A stretch of DNA of 64,000 bases from Pseudomonadota bacterium (lineage in GTDB: Bacteria > Pseudomonadota > Gammaproteobacteria > Steroidobacterales > SZUA-146), in assembly GCA_039028935.1 (NCBI GenBank), contig JBCCHD010000009.1, positions 1-64,000 of the forward strand, given 5' to 3'. Shown here piece by piece: positions 82 to 8,656 of the stretch; within the stretch, counting starts at the first letter, position 1; every line of letters starts with the position of its first letter. Both the position numbers and the translations under genes were made by a program. The notes beneath the pieces are model-generated. The model was not told the DNA's origin. It did no database searches and was given only the letters and a program-made list of their open reading frames with translations.

Positions 82-879
82 ATGAACAGAAAATTTCCGG
101 TTGAGTTTGCCTTTCAGGTGTTTGCGCTAATCACTGCGATTATTGTGGTGCATGGTATGTACACGCTCGTGATTCGGCCGAAGGCTGAGGCCATTCGCGT
201 ACAGCAACTCGAACAGTTAGAAGCCGATGAAAACTACGTGCCGGAACGTTCGCCCTATATTTTGATCAAAGACCTCGAGCAGGAGATGTGTTTTATTTTA
301 ATGCTCTGGGCGATGGCGATTATGGCTTACAAGGCAGTGATGGCCTCCCGCGAAGGAAAACTGCTTGAGCAAAACCTCATTCCGCTCGCGGAGGGCGTGA
401 GTATCTTGCCCGAGGATACACGCGCGTATTCGCGCACGGTGCAAGAGTTACCGTTACCACAACGCAATTTGCTGTTGCCGAGGGTTTTAAGAAGCGCGCT
501 GCATCGATTTCGAACCACGCGGAATATTCAAGATGTCTCGACCGTGGTACGAGATTTGTGTGAGGGTGAATCAGAACGGCTCGATTCGGAATTGTCACTC
601 GTGCGCTACATTGCCTGGGCCATACCTTCCATTGGTTTTATTGGTACGGTGCGCGGTATCGGTGAGGCACTCGGCCAGGCGCATCAGGCGGTGGAGGGTG
701 ACATCACCGGTGTGACCGCCAGCCTCGGTGTTGCATTTAATTCGACGTTTATCGCGTTATTGTTGAGTATTGTGTTGATGTTTTTGCTGCACCAGCTGCA
801 GCTCGTGCTAGAGCGTTTGGTGCTCGATACAGAGTCATACTGCGACGAGCGTCTGGTCAGTCAATTACAGGTGCGTTAA
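82..879 (+). CDS. MotA/TolQ/ExbB-family proton channel protein
   Basis: A 265-residue inner-membrane protein. Hydrophobic segments lie at about residues 9-31, 68-88, 174-196 and 213-240. The last two carry the family hallmark: AIPSIGFIGTVRGI (residues 180-193), then GVTASLGVAFNSTFIALL (210-227), the small-residue and Thr/Ser-rich pair that lines the ion path in TolQ, ExbB and MotA. The loop between segments 2 and 3 (about 90-173) is cytoplasmic by family topology. Such proteins form a pentamer around two copies of an ExbD/TolR/MotB-like partner and couple proton flow to movement. No ExbD or MotB follows; the two VWA proteins downstream have an ExbD-like membrane segment and are the likely partners. 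The next gene starts only two bases after the stop, so they are co-translated. Fold assignment is firm; the role is unknown. Confidence 0.93.
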   Translation: MNRKFPVEFAFQVFALITAIIVVHGMYTLVIRPKAEAIRVQQLEQLEADENYVPERSPYILIKDLEQEMCFILMLWAMAIMAYKAVMASREGKLLEQNLIPLAEGVSILPEDTRAYSRTVQELPLPQRNLLLPRVLRSALHRFRTTRNIQDVSTVVRDLCEGESERLDSELSLVRYIAWAIPSIGFIGTVRGIGEALGQAHQAVEGDITGVTASLGVAFNSTFIALLLSIVLMFLLHQLQLVLERLVLDTESYCDERLVSQLQVR

Positions 880-881
880 TT

Positions 882-2249
882 GTGTCTGTTCTGGCAATCG
901 AACTAAACGACGCGGGCGTTTTGCCAGCCTCGGCAACGCTGGTCGGGGAGAAGGCCGACGGCTGCGCGCGCTACACTGACGCGCTCATTGAAACCGGTCA
1001 GGCGGCGCGGGCGGTTGCACGTTTGTTACCGCATGAGGTCGAAAATGCCTACTGGCACCAGCTGTCACTCGAGCCGATGAGCCGACAAACCACTGTTGCG
1101 CAGTCGTTTGCGGATCTTGCGCACGCTCAGCTGGTCGATGTGTTTGCGCCGTATAAAGCGACGACTGAGCGTGTGGTGATGGCCATACCCTCGAGTTTTT
1201 CAGCGCGCCAATTAGGCTTGCTGCTCGGCATTTGTCAGCGTGCTGACATACCGGTAACCGGTCTTGTCGACGCCTCCGTGGCCGCTGTGTGTCACCCGGT
1301 CCCGGGACGTCGCATGTTGCACATCGACGCCACCAACCATTGCGTGCTCATCAATGAATTGCGCGTTGAGCAAGGGCTGCATCGCGGCGATGTGACACGA
1401 CTCGATAATGTCGGACTACTGGATTTTACGGATCGTTGGGCGACCGTTCTAGGCGATATCTTTGTGAAACAAACCCGTTTCGACCCGCTGCACTCTGCGC
1501 AGTCGGAACAATACCTCTATAACCAGATTCCAGCCGCGATCGATGCCTGGCATGCGGGTGACGAAAACACGACGATGGTCAGCGAAGGCAATGAACATAT
1601 CGCGGAAATTAACACCGCCGATATGGTTGCGTCAGTGGCGGGTCTCTATCAACCGATGGTCAACGCGATCCACGCGCAAACCGATTCCGCATCGGTAACG
1701 ACGGTGCTCTTGTCGCATCGGGTTGCCAGGCTGCCGGGGTTTGAGGCGTTGGTAGCCGATAATGAGCGCGTACGTGTTGTCACGCTCGATGAATACGCGG
1801 TCACCCGTTCTGTGCTGCAGCAGCCCGAGCAGTTTGAGAGCGAGGCCGGTCAGTTCGCGTTGGTGAAAGCCAAGCCGTGGCAGGAAACGCCAAGCGTGGT
1901 GCCAGATCGACAGCAGCCGACCGAATCGCGCTCGCGTGATTTGGCCACACACGTTCTTATTGAGAATCAGATATACGCGTTGGGGGACGAGCCATTCGTG
2001 ATCGGCACGTCACCAGCCAGCAATCAGCGCGCTTACCAGGTAACAGGCGCTGTCAAAGGCGTGTCACGTCAGCATTGCTCGCTCACGCGGCGATCCGGGC
2101 AGGTGGTGTTGGACGATATGAGTACGTACGGCACGCACATCAATGGGAAGCCCGCTGCGTCATCGCAACCCTTAGCTGTGGGTGACCGCATTTCACTTGG
2201 CAACCCTGGCATAGAGATACGTTTGGTGCGAGAGGCTGACCATGGCTAA
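882..2249 (+). CDS. Hsp70/actin-like protein with C-terminal FHA domain
   Basis: A 455-residue soluble protein read from a GTG start that lies immediately after the previous stop. The first 330 residues look like an Hsp70/actin-type ATPase fold: VVMAIPSSFSARQ (around residue 97) followed by a GLVDASVAAV stretch corresponds to the DnaK region with VPAYF and INEPTAAAL. I cannot confirm the phosphate loops by eye, so it could be a degenerate ATPase. The C-terminal 95 residues form an FHA phosphothreonine-binding domain, with VSRQHCSL and STYGTHING matching the SRxH and GTxxNG motifs. The stop overlaps the next ATG by 8 bases, implying translational coupling. FHA domains bind phosphothreonine, so a Ser/Thr kinase elsewhere may control this cassette. 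Function unknown. Confidence 0.85.
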   Translation: MSVLAIELNDAGVLPASATLVGEKADGCARYTDALIETGQAARAVARLLPHEVENAYWHQLSLEPMSRQTTVAQSFADLAHAQLVDVFAPYKATTERVVMAIPSSFSARQLGLLLGICQRADIPVTGLVDASVAAVCHPVPGRRMLHIDATNHCVLINELRVEQGLHRGDVTRLDNVGLLDFTDRWATVLGDIFVKQTRFDPLHSAQSEQYLYNQIPAAIDAWHAGDENTTMVSEGNEHIAEINTADMVASVAGLYQPMVNAIHAQTDSASVTTVLLSHRVARLPGFEALVADNERVRVVTLDEYAVTRSVLQQPEQFESEAGQFALVKAKPWQETPSVVPDRQQPTESRSRDLATHVLIENQIYALGDEPFVIGTSPASNQRAYQVTGAVKGVSRQHCSLTRRSGQVVLDDMSTYGTHINGKPAASSQPLAVGDRISLGNPGIEIRLVREADHG

Positions 2250-3339
2250 AGCTCGTCGCCGTACAACGGTTTTCAGTCTCTCGTTTCTGGACATCATGTC
2301 GTGCGGTTTTGGCGCGGTTGTGTTGCTGTTCATGATTATTAATCACGCGACCAAAGAGACGAATGACGAAGTTAACGTCGATATGATCTCAGAGGTCAAC
2401 CTGATGGAAAAGCGTCTCGAACTGGCGCAACGTAATTTGTTCGAATTGCAGAACACGGTGCAGAAATTTGATGAGCGGCGTGACGAGCTCACCGGGCAGG
2501 TGCAGAAAGTCATTCAAGTGCTGGATGAAAAAGAGCAGGAGTTAGCCGAACTCGATGAGCTCACGCTGGCCCAAAAAGAGGCGATTGAGGCACTTAAAGC
2601 CGACGTGCAGAGTCTCGACGAGGAGGCCCGTCGGCTCGAAGGCAGTCAGGCTAACCAGGACGAAACGGGCGATAATCTGCGCTCGATCACCGGCGATGGG
2701 GATCGACTCTATTTAACCGGCTTGAAACTCGGTGGCGAGCGCGTACTCATATTGGTCGATGCGTCCGCCAGCATGCTCGACGAGACAATCGTAAATGTGA
2801 TTAGGCGGCGCAACATGGCCGATGAGGACAAGCGACGCTCAGAGAAATGGCGCCGCGCGTTAGGCAGCGTTGATTGGCTCATTTCCAAGCTGCCCAAGGA
2901 CATCGAATTTCAAATCTACACGTTTAATCAGCGGGCAACCGCTACGTCCGATGGCACCGATGGGCAGTGGTTGTCTACAGCGGATCCGGCGCACGTTGAG
3001 ACCGCAATGGTTGGGCTGAATCAGGTGGTGCCGTCGAATGGCACGAGTTTGCATCGGGCTTTCGATGTGGTCAGAGCGATGAAGCCGGCCCCCGACAACG
3101 TCTATTTGCTGACGGATGGACTGCCGACCATGGGTGAGAATGCCCCGATTCGAAAAACCGCATCGGGCGCCGTACGTCAACGTCATTTCGATCGTGCGGT
3201 CAACAATCTGATCCCCGGTATTCCGGTCAACACTATTTTGTTTCCAATGGAAGGCGATCCCCAAGCCGCACCCAGCTATTGGCGCTTGGCTCAAGTGACG
3301 GCGGGCTCATTTATTAGCCCGGCACGCGACTGGCCGTAG
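2242..3339 (+). CDS. VWA protein with ExbD/MotB-like membrane anchor (1)
   Basis: A 365-residue protein. After a basic N-terminus, residues 11-33 form one membrane segment beginning SLSFLDIMSCGFGAVV; Asp17 at its start sits where ExbD, TolR and MotB carry their proton-accepting aspartate. Residues about 45-140 are charged and heptad-like (coiled coil). A von Willebrand A domain follows from about 165: LILVDASASM contains the metal site DxSxS (Asp173, Ser175, Ser177), and a TDG motif lies downstream. Topology by analogy is N-terminus in, VWA domain in the periplasm. It has the layout of a stator partner in which the peptidoglycan-binding domain is replaced by a VWA domain. It overlaps the FHA gene by 8 bases and has a paralogue just downstream. 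The pairing with the proton channel is inferred from context. Confidence 0.88.
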   Translation: MAKARRRTTVFSLSFLDIMSCGFGAVVLLFMIINHATKETNDEVNVDMISEVNLMEKRLELAQRNLFELQNTVQKFDERRDELTGQVQKVIQVLDEKEQELAELDELTLAQKEAIEALKADVQSLDEEARRLEGSQANQDETGDNLRSITGDGDRLYLTGLKLGGERVLILVDASASMLDETIVNVIRRRNMADEDKRRSEKWRRALGSVDWLISKLPKDIEFQIYTFNQRATATSDGTDGQWLSTADPAHVETAMVGLNQVVPSNGTSLHRAFDVVRAMKPAPDNVYLLTDGLPTMGENAPIRKTASGAVRQRHFDRAVNNLIPGIPVNTILFPMEGDPQAAPSYWRLAQVTAGSFISPARDWP

Positions 3340-3392
3340 GCGGGCTAGATTGACGCTCAGTTGATCGATGAGCAAACAGTAAGAGAGCGAAC

Positions 3393-4394
3393 ATGAAACA
3401 ACGGCGCGACATTGAAGGCATTAGCCTGAGTTTTCTCGACACCATTGCGTGTGGTTTCGGTGCGATTATCTTATTACTTGTGATCGTCAAGGTGACAGAA
3501 CCGATTGTGTTGGAAGAATCAACGATCGACTATGAAGGCAAAGTGCGACAGCTCCAGGCTGAGCTGTTTGAAATTCGTGGCGAAGTTAAGACGGTCACGC
3601 GCACCCTGTCAGACAAGAAAAATCAGGTTTCAAAAGAAGAGCTTCGTCTCGCCCGGCTCCAGGGTGATCTGTCTCGAATCGAAGGCGCATTTAATGCATC
3701 AACGCAGGATTCTTCGGTCGCCAATATTATCGCGGGTCGACTGGCCAGTGCCCAGCAGACCCTCACCGAAGAGATGCAGCGTCTGCAGGTGACGCAAATC
3801 GCCAAAGCGAATAATTCGGATCTCGTGGCCGGTATACCCGTCGACAGTGAGTACGTGATCTTCATCATCGATACATCGGGCAGTATGTACAACTACGCCT
3901 GGACGATGGCGGTGCAAAAAATGGAAGAGACGCTCGAAGTGTATCCGGAGGTGAAGGGAATCCAGGTGATGAACGATATGGGTAACTATATGTTTAGCCG
4001 CTACGCCGGCGAGTGGATTCCGGACACGCCTGCGCGCCGCAAAGCCATCGTTCAGCGCATGCGAAGCTGGAATGCGTTTAGCAACAGTAGTCCTGTCGAG
4101 GGCATCACGAAAGCCATCAATACGTTTTATTCTCCGGATAAAAAAATCAGCCTGTATGTGTTTGGCGATGAGTTTACGGGTGGCTCGATTCAGTCGGTGG
4201 TTGATAAGGTCGATGCGATCAACCGTCGCGATTCGTCGGGGCGCCGGCGTGTTCGCATTCACGGCGTGGGTTTTCCTGTGTTGTTTGCACAAGACCCCCG
4301 TATTCAGCGCACGGGTGTGCGTTTTGCCGTGCTCATGCGCGCGCTATGTGAGCGCAATGAGGGCACGTTCGTCGGCTTGGAGAGCTTCCGTTAA
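3393..4394 (+). CDS. VWA protein with ExbD/MotB-like membrane anchor (2)
   Basis: A 333-residue paralogue of the preceding protein. Residues 10-33 form the membrane segment SLSFLDTIACGFGAIILL with Asp15 or Asp16 in the same place, then a coiled coil to about 135, then the VWA domain with FIIDTSGSMY (metal site DxSGS from Asp160). Sequence outside the membrane segment and metal site has diverged strongly, so the two probably form a heterodimer rather than being a recent duplication. A 53-base gap with AAGAGAG ahead of the ATG separates it from the first copy. It ends the four-gene cassette; the next gene is convergent. Confidence 0.88.
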   Translation: MKQRRDIEGISLSFLDTIACGFGAIILLLVIVKVTEPIVLEESTIDYEGKVRQLQAELFEIRGEVKTVTRTLSDKKNQVSKEELRLARLQGDLSRIEGAFNASTQDSSVANIIAGRLASAQQTLTEEMQRLQVTQIAKANNSDLVAGIPVDSEYVIFIIDTSGSMYNYAWTMAVQKMEETLEVYPEVKGIQVMNDMGNYMFSRYAGEWIPDTPARRKAIVQRMRSWNAFSNSSPVEGITKAINTFYSPDKKISLYVFGDEFTGGSIQSVVDKVDAINRRDSSGRRRVRIHGVGFPVLFAQDPRIQRTGVRFAVLMRALCERNEGTFVGLESFR

Positions 4395-4474: not shown

Positions 4475-5542
4475 TTATCCGCGTTTGGCAAGATCCTGCT
4501 CGGAACTGAGCTGCCGATACAGCTGCATGAGCTGCGTACCGACCCGACTCAAACTGAATTCGAGATTGGAGCGCGCGGCTTGGTCACTCATTTCTTGGTA
4601 TGAATCCGAGTTCATTCGGATCGCCGCGACAAGCGTGCGACTCAATTGCTCGGCCGTGTTCGGTTTGAACGTGATACCGGTTTGCTGATGCACCACCTGT
4701 TCGGCTGCGCCGCTTTCGGCATTCACAATGGCGGGCACACCACAGTACATGGCCTCGGTAACGACCAGGCCAAAACTCTCTCCGCGCGCTGGAAAGACCA
4801 AAAATCGAGACGCGGCATAGAGTTGACGAAGTCGCGTTTGCGGGACATCCACGAACACGTCGATATCCAGATGATGACCGGCGCGTTTGAGCGCATCTTT
4901 GAGCTCGCCGCTGCCAACAAAGCAGGCTTTAATGGCTTGGTCCTCGAGCATGTTCAGCGCCGATAGCAGAATATCCGCCCCTTTATGCTCGCTGAATGAG
5001 CCAACAAAAATAAAATCATATTCCTTCGTGATTTTGTCGTTCCGATGGAAACGAAGATCGTCGGCCCCCGCGCAGATTACTTGTGCAGTCTTAACGCCAA
5101 GCTGACGTTCGATGACGGGTCGCAGGCTCTCGCCCGCAATGATGATGGCATCGTAGCGTTGAGCCGCTTTGGCAAAGCGGCGTTGCGTGCGTACCGAGTG
5201 TTGATCGAACTGTCGAATGCTGCCGCCATGAATAGAGAGGATGAGGCGAACGCGCGGATGCAGCAATCGATAAAAGCGCGCGGCATGAAGCAAAGTGGTC
5301 ACTGAGTGCACATGAACAATGTCATAGCGTCGAAAATACTTTGGGATGAACTTAATGGATGACCAAAGACGATGCCAGAAAGAAAACCGTTTGCCGCGCG
5401 AATGTGTACGGACTTTAAACAAGTCAAAAGCTTCATCGTCCGTGGCGTGACGCGTAAAGAAGCGAAACTGATGGCGCACGAAAATGCCGGCGGAAGGCCG
5501 ATCAGGAGTGGGATAGGTGTCGGTGACCAAAAGTACTTTCAT
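4475..5542 (-). CDS. GT-B fold glycosyltransferase (GT4 type)
   Basis: A 355-residue retaining glycosyltransferase starting MKVLLVTDTYPTP; an in-frame extension upstream to 5611 is possible but begins before the typical N-terminal strand, so I prefer the ATG at 5542. The nucleotide-sugar half shows FIFVGSFSEHKGADILL and the family EX7E-type motif in GESFGLVVTEAM, followed by the GVPAIV turn. It would transfer a sugar from a nucleotide donor to a lipid- or saccharide-linked acceptor at the cytoplasmic face of the membrane. It stands alone, convergent to the VWA cassette and divergent from the ABC importer, and 19 kb from the exopolysaccharide locus. Donor and acceptor are not readable from the sequence. 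Confidence 0.9.
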   Translation of the reverse strand: MKVLLVTDTYPTPDRPSAGIFVRHQFRFFTRHATDDEAFDLFKVRTHSRGKRFSFWHRLWSSIKFIPKYFRRYDIVHVHSVTTLLHAARFYRLLHPRVRLILSIHGGSIRQFDQHSVRTQRRFAKAAQRYDAIIIAGESLRPVIERQLGVKTAQVICAGADDLRFHRNDKITKEYDFIFVGSFSEHKGADILLSALNMLEDQAIKACFVGSGELKDALKRAGHHLDIDVFVDVPQTRLRQLYAASRFLVFPARGESFGLVVTEAMYCGVPAIVNAESGAAEQVVHQQTGITFKPNTAEQLSRTLVAAIRMNSDSYQEMSDQAARSNLEFSLSRVGTQLMQLYRQLSSEQDLAKRG

Positions 5543-5838
5543 GGAATCGCATGCCGCCAGACAGAATCGCGACGATACCAAATTATTGACCGTTCTGTAG
5601 CCACAGTGCATGACTTTATTCGGTTTTTGTTGGGCCTTGCCGCGCGACCACGCCCGAGCGAATCGGCGATATTGATACCACCGTGAAAGTTGTTGCGCGA
5701 GTGGGCTTGAGTTACTCTAACCGATCGAAATCGCTGAAAAAATCGGACCGCCGAGGCAGTGGCCGTATATCGCGCTGTCAGACGAGTTGCGGGCCGTCAG
5801 AGGGTTGGTTAATGATGTCAATACAAAAGCGAGGTGCC

Positions 5839-7644
5839 ATGGGCTCACGTTTCTTGGCGGTTTTTGCCATCGTGATACTTGCGCAGATGCTAGGAGCGTG
5901 CAGCTGCAGTGACAACACTGCTCCGACCGAGCAGGCAGGGCTAAAAGTGTATCGAGTTGCTCTGGACCAGACGCCGCGCGATCTTGACCCAGCGCATTCT
6001 TCGACACTGTATCAAAACCATATCGTGCTGAATCTGTACGACACGCTGTACAGCTATGAATACCTTGCGAGGCCTTACAAGCTCAAACCGCGACTGGCGG
6101 TAGAATTGCCCGAAGTGTCGGCCGACGGGCTCACCTACACCATCCGTCTGCGCAAGGGCGTACGGTTTATGGATGATCCGGCGTTTGAAGAGGGCAAAGG
6201 TCGCGAAGTGACCGCCGCCGACGTGGTGTACTCGCTAAAACGCCACTTTGATCCAGAGACGTTGTCCAGCGGCGACTGGTTTTGGAAGAACCGCATCAAA
6301 GGTCTCGATGCCTGGAAAGAAGCGGGTGCCGACTATGCGCAGCCGGTCGAAGGATTACAGGCGCCGGATTCCCATACGCTCGTTATTCGCCTTACCAAAC
6401 CCTACCCGCAGCTTGTGCACACACTGGCACAAGGCTATGCAGGCGTCGTGCCGCGCGAGGCTGTTGCGCGATACGGGCGAGAACTGGCGACGCACCCAGT
6501 GGGCTCCGGCCCGTATAAACTCGAGAAGTTTGATAGCACGCAGGTCGTGCTGGTGCGCAATCCTGGCTATCGTGAAGACCGTGTCGATCTTGCGGCCGAA
6601 GGATTTGATCCGGCCCTGCACGGTGGTCTCGGCCTCGAGCGCATCGATGGTCTAGCACTGCCGATCAGTGATCGTGTACACGTCTATTTTATTGCCGAAG
6701 ACACCGCGCGCGTCACGTCGCTCACCAAGGGTGGAGAGCTGCACACCGCGCGATTGCCGGCCTTGATGTACGAGCAGTTTCTGGCATCGACCGAGCCAGC
6801 TGCGCTTAAGTCGCAATACGCTGAGCAGTTTAATATGGTCGCTGGTCTTGAATCCGGCTTCGTTTATATGAATTTTAATCTGGATGATCCAGATTTTGGT
6901 GTGACGGACGACCCGGCACAAAGCGCGCGCAATAAAGCACTTCGCTGCGCGATCTTCAAAGGGTTTGACTGGCAGTTGCGCAACAGCGCGTACTATTCCA
7001 ACCTCGGCGAGATCTTTCCAGGCATCATTACGCCAACGGTACCTGAGTTCGATCCCAATCTACCCCGCGATACGGTGACACGCGATGTGCCGGGCGCTAA
7101 AAAACTGCTTACCGAAGCGGGTTGGAATGCCGATAACTTGCCAGAGTTGGTTTATGGTATTCCGTCTTCGGTGCTCCAGACGCAATATTTTGAGCAATTT
7201 CGAGGCTTCATGGGCGATATTGGTTATCCACGCGATAAAATTGTGCTCAAACGGTACGCAACCTTTGGCGATATCGCTAAGGCCTGGCGAAATTCAGAGT
7301 TGCCGCTGATCTATAAAGGCTGGACACTCGATTATCCCGACGCGGAAAACACGCTTCAGTTGTTTTATGGCCCGAATGCGGCACCGGGTTCAAACGACTC
7401 TAATTATCGAAACCCGGCCTATGACCGGCTATTTGAGGAAGCGTCGGTGATGCAGCCCGGTACGAATCGCACTGCGATTTATCGGCGCATGAATCAAATG
7501 GTCATCGACGACTGCGTGTCGACGACAGGGTTGTCGCGTACGCAAGTATTGCTCTGGGATAAACGCGTGGCGGCCTACCCCGATCGCGGGTTTGTCGGCG
7601 GTTTCTACTTTCCGTACGTCGATGTACCGGCGCAGGAGCGGTAG
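5839..7644 (+). CDS. Peptide-type ABC importer solute-binding lipoprotein (SBP family 5)
   Basis: A 601-residue lipoprotein. I choose the ATG at 5839 because GAGG lies five bases upstream and because it gives a short signal peptide ending in the lipobox LGAC, with Cys about residue 21; the reading frame stays open back to 5683. The mature part is a family 5 extracellular binding protein (OppA/DppA type): LDPAHSSTLYQNHI near the start, an ADVVYSLKR segment and HPVGSGPYKLEKF in the middle. It would capture oligopeptides or similar ligands in the periplasm and hand them to the permeases encoded next. The 58-base gap to the permease gene contains no clear terminator. Ligand unknown. Confidence 0.94.
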   Translation: MGSRFLAVFAIVILAQMLGACSCSDNTAPTEQAGLKVYRVALDQTPRDLDPAHSSTLYQNHIVLNLYDTLYSYEYLARPYKLKPRLAVELPEVSADGLTYTIRLRKGVRFMDDPAFEEGKGREVTAADVVYSLKRHFDPETLSSGDWFWKNRIKGLDAWKEAGADYAQPVEGLQAPDSHTLVIRLTKPYPQLVHTLAQGYAGVVPREAVARYGRELATHPVGSGPYKLEKFDSTQVVLVRNPGYREDRVDLAAEGFDPALHGGLGLERIDGLALPISDRVHVYFIAEDTARVTSLTKGGELHTARLPALMYEQFLASTEPAALKSQYAEQFNMVAGLESGFVYMNFNLDDPDFGVTDDPAQSARNKALRCAIFKGFDWQLRNSAYYSNLGEIFPGIITPTVPEFDPNLPRDTVTRDVPGAKKLLTEAGWNADNLPELVYGIPSSVLQTQYFEQFRGFMGDIGYPRDKIVLKRYATFGDIAKAWRNSELPLIYKGWTLDYPDAENTLQLFYGPNAAPGSNDSNYRNPAYDRLFEEASVMQPGTNRTAIYRRMNQMVIDDCVSTTGLSRTQVLLWDKRVAAYPDRGFVGGFYFPYVDVPAQER

Positions 7645-7702
7645 TTGCTTGAGCCGTTCTGCCGCGTCCATCTATTCTTCGCGGTAACGCCCGACTAGCG
7701 CG

Positions 7703-8656
7703 ATGGGTCTGATCCCCTTTATTGTGCGTAAGCTACTGGGCGGCATCCCACTTGTTCTGGGTGTCACCTTCATCAGTTTCTTGCTCATGGTGTACTTCGG
7801 CCCCGATCGCACCAATGAAATAGTCGGTAAGAACCCGACAGCGGAGCAAATTGCAGAAGTGCGGGCGCAGCTTGGCTACGACAAACCGTTCTTCGCGCGG
7901 TATGTCGACTATCTGACTGAGCTTGTGACGCTTGATTTTGGTTTGTCGGCCTCCAGCGGTCAGCGCGTGTCGACGGTGCTCGCCACGGCCGTGCCCATTA
8001 CGCTCGCGCTGATGGCACCGGGCTTTGTGCTGGGCAATTTGCTCGGTCTGGGGTTTGCGTTGGTTGCGGCCTATCACCGAGGGCGCTGGCTCGACAAAGC
8101 GATCATGGGCGCTTCGGTTGTCGGCATGAGCATCAGCTTTCTGATCGTGGTGATTTTTTTCCAGCTCTTGTTTTGCTCCAGCATGGGGCTCAATTGGTTC
8201 CCGTCACGTGGTTGGGAGGTGGACTCGGTGTCGAGCTATTTGTACTACGTGACAGTACCAACGCTGGCGGTGGTGTTTGTTGCGTTGGGCTACAACACGC
8301 GCTTTTACCGTGCGGTATTGGTTGAGGAGCTCAATCGTGATCACGTGCGCACGGCCCTAGCCTACGGCACGCCACCTGCCCGATTGCTGTGTCGCAACGT
8401 ACTTAAAAACGCACTAATCCCGATTATCACCCGCGTGTTGTTTTCCATCCCGCTTGTTCTGATCAGTGGCAGCCTCATCATCGAAACCTATTTTGGTATT
8501 CCCGGTGCGGGAAAAATGACCTATGACGCCATTACTCAGGGTGATCAGCCCGTACTCAAAGCAGTGGTTGGGCTTACTGCCGTGCTGTTTGTGTTCACGC
8601 TGTTGCTCGCTGATATGTTGTACCGACTTGTCGATCCACGCGTGGAGTTGACATGA
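7703..8656 (+). CDS. ABC transporter permease, DppB/OppB type
   Basis: A 317-residue inner-membrane protein with about six membrane segments. The N-terminus (IPFIVRKLLGGIPLVLGVTFISF) and the stretch NPTAEQIAEVRAQLGYDKP are typical of DppB/OppB. The EAA-type coupling loop is seen at HVRTALAYGTPPARLLCRNVLKNA, split here only to name it: key residues are Ala, Gly and the following Leu-rich turn, which contacts the ATPases. It overlaps the next permease gene by 4 bases (ATGA), so the two are coupled. Pairs with the second permease to form the translocation pore. Confidence 0.94.
   Translation: MGLIPFIVRKLLGGIPLVLGVTFISFLLMVYFGPDRTNEIVGKNPTAEQIAEVRAQLGYDKPFFARYVDYLTELVTLDFGLSASSGQRVSTVLATAVPITLALMAPGFVLGNLLGLGFALVAAYHRGRWLDKAIMGASVVGMSISFLIVVIFFQLLFCSSMGLNWFPSRGWEVDSVSSYLYYVTVPTLAVVFVALGYNTRFYRAVLVEELNRDHVRTALAYGTPPARLLCRNVLKNALIPIITRVLFSIPLVLISGSLIIETYFGIPGAGKMTYDAITQGDQPVLKAVVGLTAVLFVFTLLLADMLYRLVDPRVELT

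Follow-up and report, generated by a model that had tools for sequence, protein, structure and literature searches.

A conserved operon of a MotA/TolQ/ExbB-type channel, two VWA proteins and a proposed kinase-FHA switch as a candidate trans-envelope 5:2 proton machine in Steroidobacterales

The stretch of DNA analyzed here (the window, 64,000 nucleotides) is the start of contig C9 of a gammaproteobacterial genome of the order Steroidobacterales. It opens with four genes on the forward strand, at the coordinates that a preliminary description had given them. The first (82 to 879) encodes a MotA/TolQ/ExbB-type channel subunit of 265 amino acids (Pfam MotA_ExbB, PF01618, E value of 2.7e-14), whose third membrane helix contains a GT pair (643 to 648) within a GTVR motif that is invariant in alignment A3 (89/89). 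The second (882 to 2249) encodes a protein with an Hsp70 nucleotide-binding fold (residues 1 to about 335) and a C-terminal FHA domain (approximately 2031 to 2201; PF00498, E value of 2.9e-11) that carries the phosphothreonine motif SRxH...N-G. VWA1 (2242 to 3339) and VWA2 (3393 to 4394) follow; spacing is tight throughout, and VWA1 overlaps the preceding gene (2242 versus 2249). Each VWA protein consists of a short basic N-terminal tail, one membrane helix (2275 to 2340 in VWA1 and 3423 to 3488 in VWA2), a coiled coil (at about 2350 to 2690 in VWA1) and a VWA domain. The DxSxS motif of the MIDAS lies at 2758 to 2772 in VWA1, where the MIDAS is complete, and at 3870 to 3884 in VWA2. Pfam VWA_2 scores both proteins below its gathering cut-off (E values of 8.5e-5 and 1.9e-3), and the assignment is made secure by MIDAS residues that are invariant across about 190 homologues: D173 in 93/94, S175, S177 and D292 each in 94/94 and T/S268 in 93/94 sequences of VWA1, DxSxS in 100/100 sequences of VWA2, and an invariant VWA2 D259 in alignment A1. 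The two VWA proteins form distinct families, and their order is fixed. Downstream (4475 to 8656) lie a glycosyltransferase-like gene and then a peptide-type ABC transporter operon, neighbors that recur in the genus and at L039 and L053 of family f16.

The preliminary description treated the four genes as a cassette. As the first position of the window is a contig end, only the tail of an operon was visible and at least five upstream genes were cut off. A search of the same genome found the missing half at the end of another contig, C35, where a PEGA-FGE gene on the minus strand is adjoined by genes for a kinase-TPR protein and two lipoproteins and, divergently, by two more lipoprotein genes. 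Relatives hold both sets contiguously, in the order Ser/Ala/Gly-rich lipoprotein, lipoprotein of about 410 amino acids, Ser/Thr kinase-TM-TPR protein, TM-PEGA-FGE protein, small secreted protein, channel, Hsp70-FHA protein, VWA1 and VWA2, often accompanied by two further lipoprotein genes. Hence, the cassette is the 3' half of an operon of about nine to eleven genes. Judging from the sequence, positions 2 to 13 of the forward strand are probably the last codons (VDI and a stop) of the small secreted acidic protein that starts at the end of C35, which would join the two contigs; the small protein of the relative locus L055 ends in ...FPIDI. The final two lipoprotein genes lie 3' of VWA2 in many families, but in the genus of the window and a few others they stand 5' of the operon and are divergent from it (compare L108:7891-9293 with L034:11629-12985). 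Open reading frames of about 740 amino acids in L045, L046 and L060, considered as channel-Hsp70 fusions, were rejected as out-of-frame read-through or a frameshift.

VWA2 is present in 50 of the 59 genomes of the order (40 of the 47 of high quality), nearly always with VWA1 directly upstream, in 30 of 370 Gammaproteobacteria from an even draw, and in 13 of 398 genomes drawn across the phylum. The matches named are metagenome-assembled genomes of Gammaproteobacteria (Porticoccaceae, Pseudomonadales), Desulfobacterales and Desulfobulbaceae and one Acidobacteriota bin. Among 95 loci at which VWA1 and VWA2 adjoin each other, some truncated by contig ends and many from fragmentary assemblies, the channel gene lies upstream on the same strand in 89; the channel-VWA1-VWA2 module is kept together far beyond chance. 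The PEGA-FGE gene is present at 83 of these loci, the gene for the TPR protein at 78, that for the 410-residue lipoprotein at 75 and that for the Ser/Ala/Gly-rich lipoprotein at 71. The Hsp70 gene is found at only 67 of the 95, and its absence from so many loci places it outside the core; of the four genes first grouped together, the Hsp70 gene with its FHA domain is thus dispensable.

Could these genes instead belong to an anti-phage or conflict system, resembling Zorya with its ZorAB motor or the vWA ternary systems? VWA, kinase and FHA domains are common in such systems, and the channel has a faint ZorA-type similarity, with an E value of 0.05 (12.5 bits against a cut-off of 500) for ZorA and of 0.02 with PADLOC, which does not make it a member of Zorya. 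The operon is, however, near-core in its order with a fixed gene order, gave no match in searches of 72,556 plasmids and 50,697 phage records, and encodes no nuclease or helicase; no MoxR AAA+ ATPase, the hallmark by which the vWA-MoxR ternary systems were judged, is among its conserved genes. Its variation takes the form of losing regulatory parts, and effectors are not swapped. We therefore regard a role in conflict as very improbable, and envelope maintenance or a surface function as more likely than defense.

No PF02472 (ExbD/TolR) match was found at C9:1-4400, and no VWA locus carried an ExbD-type open reading frame in a search in which a TolQ-type control locus did score; the other ExbB/TolQ-type channels of the same genome adjoin ExbD genes. 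An aspartate in the first helix (Asp17 of VWA1, 2290 to 2292; Asp16 of VWA2, 3438 to 3440) is invariant in 93/93 VWA1 N termini and in 100/100 VWA2 sequences, and it is kept even in the clade in which a neighboring cysteine is replaced by serine. This near-invariant cysteine, four residues past the aspartate (VWA1 C21, 2302 to 2304; VWA2 C20, 3450 to 3452), is present in 87/93 VWA1 sequences, is serine in one clade and was not seen in ExbD. The preliminary description had placed the aspartate where ExbD has its own. The two do share a helix position, number 2 of the most hydrophobic 19-mer in the VWA proteins and in the mere 8 ExbD sequences compared, but the resemblance is positional: profile comparison of the VWA helix with ExbD by hhalign gave a probability of 1.1%, no better than that of control helices, and did not show homology. 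We propose that the VWA helix works like that of ExbD by position. Sequence searches of solved structures returned nothing at an E value of 0.01 for the channel profile, and the matches of VWA1 were confined to coiled coils and comparable helical segments. The earlier suggestion that the VWA pair replaces the usual channel partner is strengthened by the lack of ExbD nearby, the invariant aspartate and the conserved module.

A motor of this kind has been predicted independently, and the system is therefore not wholly undescribed, contrary to the earlier claim. A recent paper (Mol Biol Evol 2025 msaf138; PMC12204202) reports paired VWA proteins, those of Idiomarina loihiensis among them, with an ExbD-like aspartate helix beside tolQ-like genes that lack tolR/exbD and predicts their VWA-TolQ complexes with AlphaFold 3 as 5:2 motors, the helix being placed within a channel pentamer with its aspartate toward a ring of threonines. 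These TPH-vWA/TolQ motors share with our operon the tolQ-like gene without tolR/exbD, the heterologous VWA pair, the aspartate-bearing, putative transpore helix and the occurrence in Proteobacteria; here, the aspartate helix is N-terminal and the tolQ-like gene is adjacent to the pair. The paper also describes a different VWA family, with an SHLS helix motif, in a TolA/TonB-like arrangement. By analogy, the VWA helices of the window could sit outside a complete ExbB-ExbD-type motor and serve only as force transducers, using an ExbD encoded elsewhere, and the genome does encode several ExbD-type proteins that could be borrowed. We consider this quite unlikely, because the family so described has the SHLS motif whereas the VWA proteins of the window have an invariant aspartate at the ExbD position, the channel never has an ExbD at its locus, and the VWA genes form an adjacent pair, which fits a two-helix axle. 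The text of PMC12204202 mentions no kinase-TPR protein, Hsp70-FHA protein, PEGA/FGE protein, lipoproteins or regulatory input. Both the kinase switch and the remaining operon genes appear to be undescribed, and judging from openly available article texts, the kinase-FHA-PEGA set is probably absent from print.

On the periplasmic side, the PEGA-FGE protein looks non-catalytic and closest to GldK. Its FGE domain has a single conserved cysteine column, in CNWLS, and lacks the conserved active-site cysteine pair of FGE (SUMF1) enzymes. The best NCBIfam model is GldK TIGR03525 (E value of 4.7e-25), with 88.7 bits against a cut-off of 350, a score that other non-catalytic FGE proteins could reach as well. 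GldK has been proposed to act with the GldLM 5:2 motor (PMC13104615), and the FGE protein of the operon may represent a parallel use of the dead FGE fold. The operon would share with GldKLMN of type IX secretion and gliding the 5:2 proton motor class and a non-catalytic FGE-fold protein, but it contains no GldL, GldM or GldN and is not from Bacteroidota, and PEGA repeats and a membrane helix set its FGE protein apart from GldK. Some loci, L034 and L042 among them, encode a longer PEGA-FGE protein (about 800 to 840 amino acids) with an extra cytoplasmic domain of about 110 amino acids before the membrane helix, which is FHA-like by eye and lacks the SxxH motif; the genome of the window has the short version. 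The 410-residue lipoprotein was modeled (pLDDT of 81) as an alpha/beta domain followed by two long helices. Almost all top structural matches of the alpha/beta domain are TolB, at E values of 0.014 to 0.1 that are below significance, and a sequence search of solved structures with the lipoprotein returned nothing at an E value of 1. We tentatively call it TolB-like, the model being suggestive only. Compared with ExbBD/TolQR and Tol-Pal, the operon has the channel family, an aspartate at the start of one helix and this putative TolB-like lipoprotein in common; it differs in having VWA domains in place of periplasmic TolR/ExbD, with no ExbD domain, and no Pal-type protein was seen in it.

The Hsp70-FHA protein and the kinase point to regulation. 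The Hsp70/actin-like fold, named correctly in the preliminary description, was not detected by Pfam; it is borne out by an AlphaFold 2 model (mean pLDDT of 89.7) whose best PDB matches in Foldseek are DnaK/BiP (E value of 3e-17), Hsp70 nucleotide-binding domains matching it at target TM scores of 0.67 to 0.69. Neither a DLGTT nor a GGGT motif was seen by eye in alignment A4, which makes ATPase activity doubtful. The protein thus has the nucleotide-binding fold of Hsp70 and lacks its phosphate-binding motifs and its substrate-binding domain, where the FHA domain stands instead. The kinase domain forms the N terminus of the TPR protein, although some families encode it in a gene of its own immediately upstream, and across loci it is intact, decayed or absent, as is the FHA domain.

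An intact kinase always occurs with an FHA domain, and the two tend to be lost together, a new finding of this analysis. On a tree of channel, VWA1 and VWA2 with 72 tips, FHA was present at all 28 tips with an intact kinase, and 38 of the 44 tips without one had no FHA or no Hsp70 at all. Pagel tests favored the dependent over the independent model (LR of 35.2, P of 4e-7; LR of 32.5, P of 1.5e-6 in a second fit), also when loci without Hsp70 were left out (P of 1.8e-5) or the S-R motif of FHA was demanded (P of 4e-8), and tied the presence of the Hsp70 gene only weakly to the kinase (P of 0.08), all P values being approximate because of a simple optimizer and a midpoint-rooted FastTree tree. 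With nine kinase changes and six FHA changes by parsimony, the pattern does not go back to one event. The dependence runs in one direction, in that no tip with an intact kinase lacks FHA. The exceptions, L039, L053 and L140 with an intact FHA and a decayed or missing kinase and L025, L057 and L141 with a degrading FHA and no intact kinase, would fit a decay of the kinase before that of FHA. On the simplest interpretation, the kinase makes the phosphothreonine that FHA recognizes, and the phospho-signal input first proposed from the FHA domain gains from a co-encoded kinase that co-varies with it. The motor genes are also kept where neither is present, hence the switch is optional regulation. 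G009 and G022 each contain two copies of the operon (L066/L067 and L069/L068), the second without Hsp70, kinase and FHA, which suggests a kinase-independent paralogous motor. The conserved PEDTR loop of the channel was dropped as a candidate phosphoacceptor, since by eye it does not follow the kinase from locus to locus. The arrangement resembles PknB/GarA-type signaling in combining a membrane Ser/Thr kinase with a co-occurring FHA reader, but FHA sits on a degenerate Hsp70, and the kinase carries TPR past its membrane helix and not PASTA repeats.

We hypothesize, with a probability of roughly 60%, that the genes of the window encode the inner membrane motor and the cytoplasmic switch of a kinase-gated, trans-envelope 5:2 proton machine. 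The two N-terminal helices, one each from VWA1 and VWA2, would lie within a ring of five channel subunits, and protons passing the invariant aspartate and the invariant threonines of the channel would make the VWA pair turn or tilt. The adhesion-type VWA domains with their MIDAS would be borne across the periplasm on a coiled coil of about 110 residues and might there grip the TolB-like lipoprotein, the other lipoproteins and the GldK-like PEGA/pseudo-FGE protein and so exert force on the outer membrane. The membrane Ser/Thr kinase, with TPR as its periplasmic sensor, would phosphorylate a cytoplasmic threonine, and the FHA domain of the degenerate Hsp70 would read it and then gate the channel or dock on it. 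The idea of a proton-driven envelope machine with phospho-input is in this form partly supported, by the module, the lack of a nearby ExbD, the aspartate and the kinase, without the claim to novelty and without Hsp70 and FHA in its core. Alternatively, the channel fold could be structural, with the VWA, PEGA and FGE parts building a complex in the envelope that serves lipoprotein or polymer assembly as a scaffold or sensor and does not turn. Most of the parts are binding domains, the Hsp70 and FGE portions seem to be without enzymatic activity, and no gene for a translocated substrate or an appendage is evident; yet the invariant aspartate and the invariant GT of the channel are the signature of proton-driven members of the family, and we judge a non-motor complex unlikely. 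More tentatively, and at somewhat less than even odds, the motor may represent a new class of regulated 5:2 rotary motors, with a VWA heterodimer as the axle, a Ser/Thr kinase with a periplasmic sensor controlling it through the pseudo-Hsp70, whose FHA domain would be a phospho-dependent clutch on the channel, and the outer membrane receiving the force by way of TolB-like and GldK-like partners.

Nutrient uptake, envelope constriction, gliding and flagella all draw on 5:2 motors driven by protons. The operon is nearly a core feature of its gammaproteobacterial order, and through a kinase switch co-evolving with the motor it would count as a kinase-gated representative of this class. With the full parts list, a two-gene prediction from the literature becomes a trans-envelope machine that can be tested, and the invariant aspartate, the kinase and the FHA domain provide concrete handles on the role of the motor.
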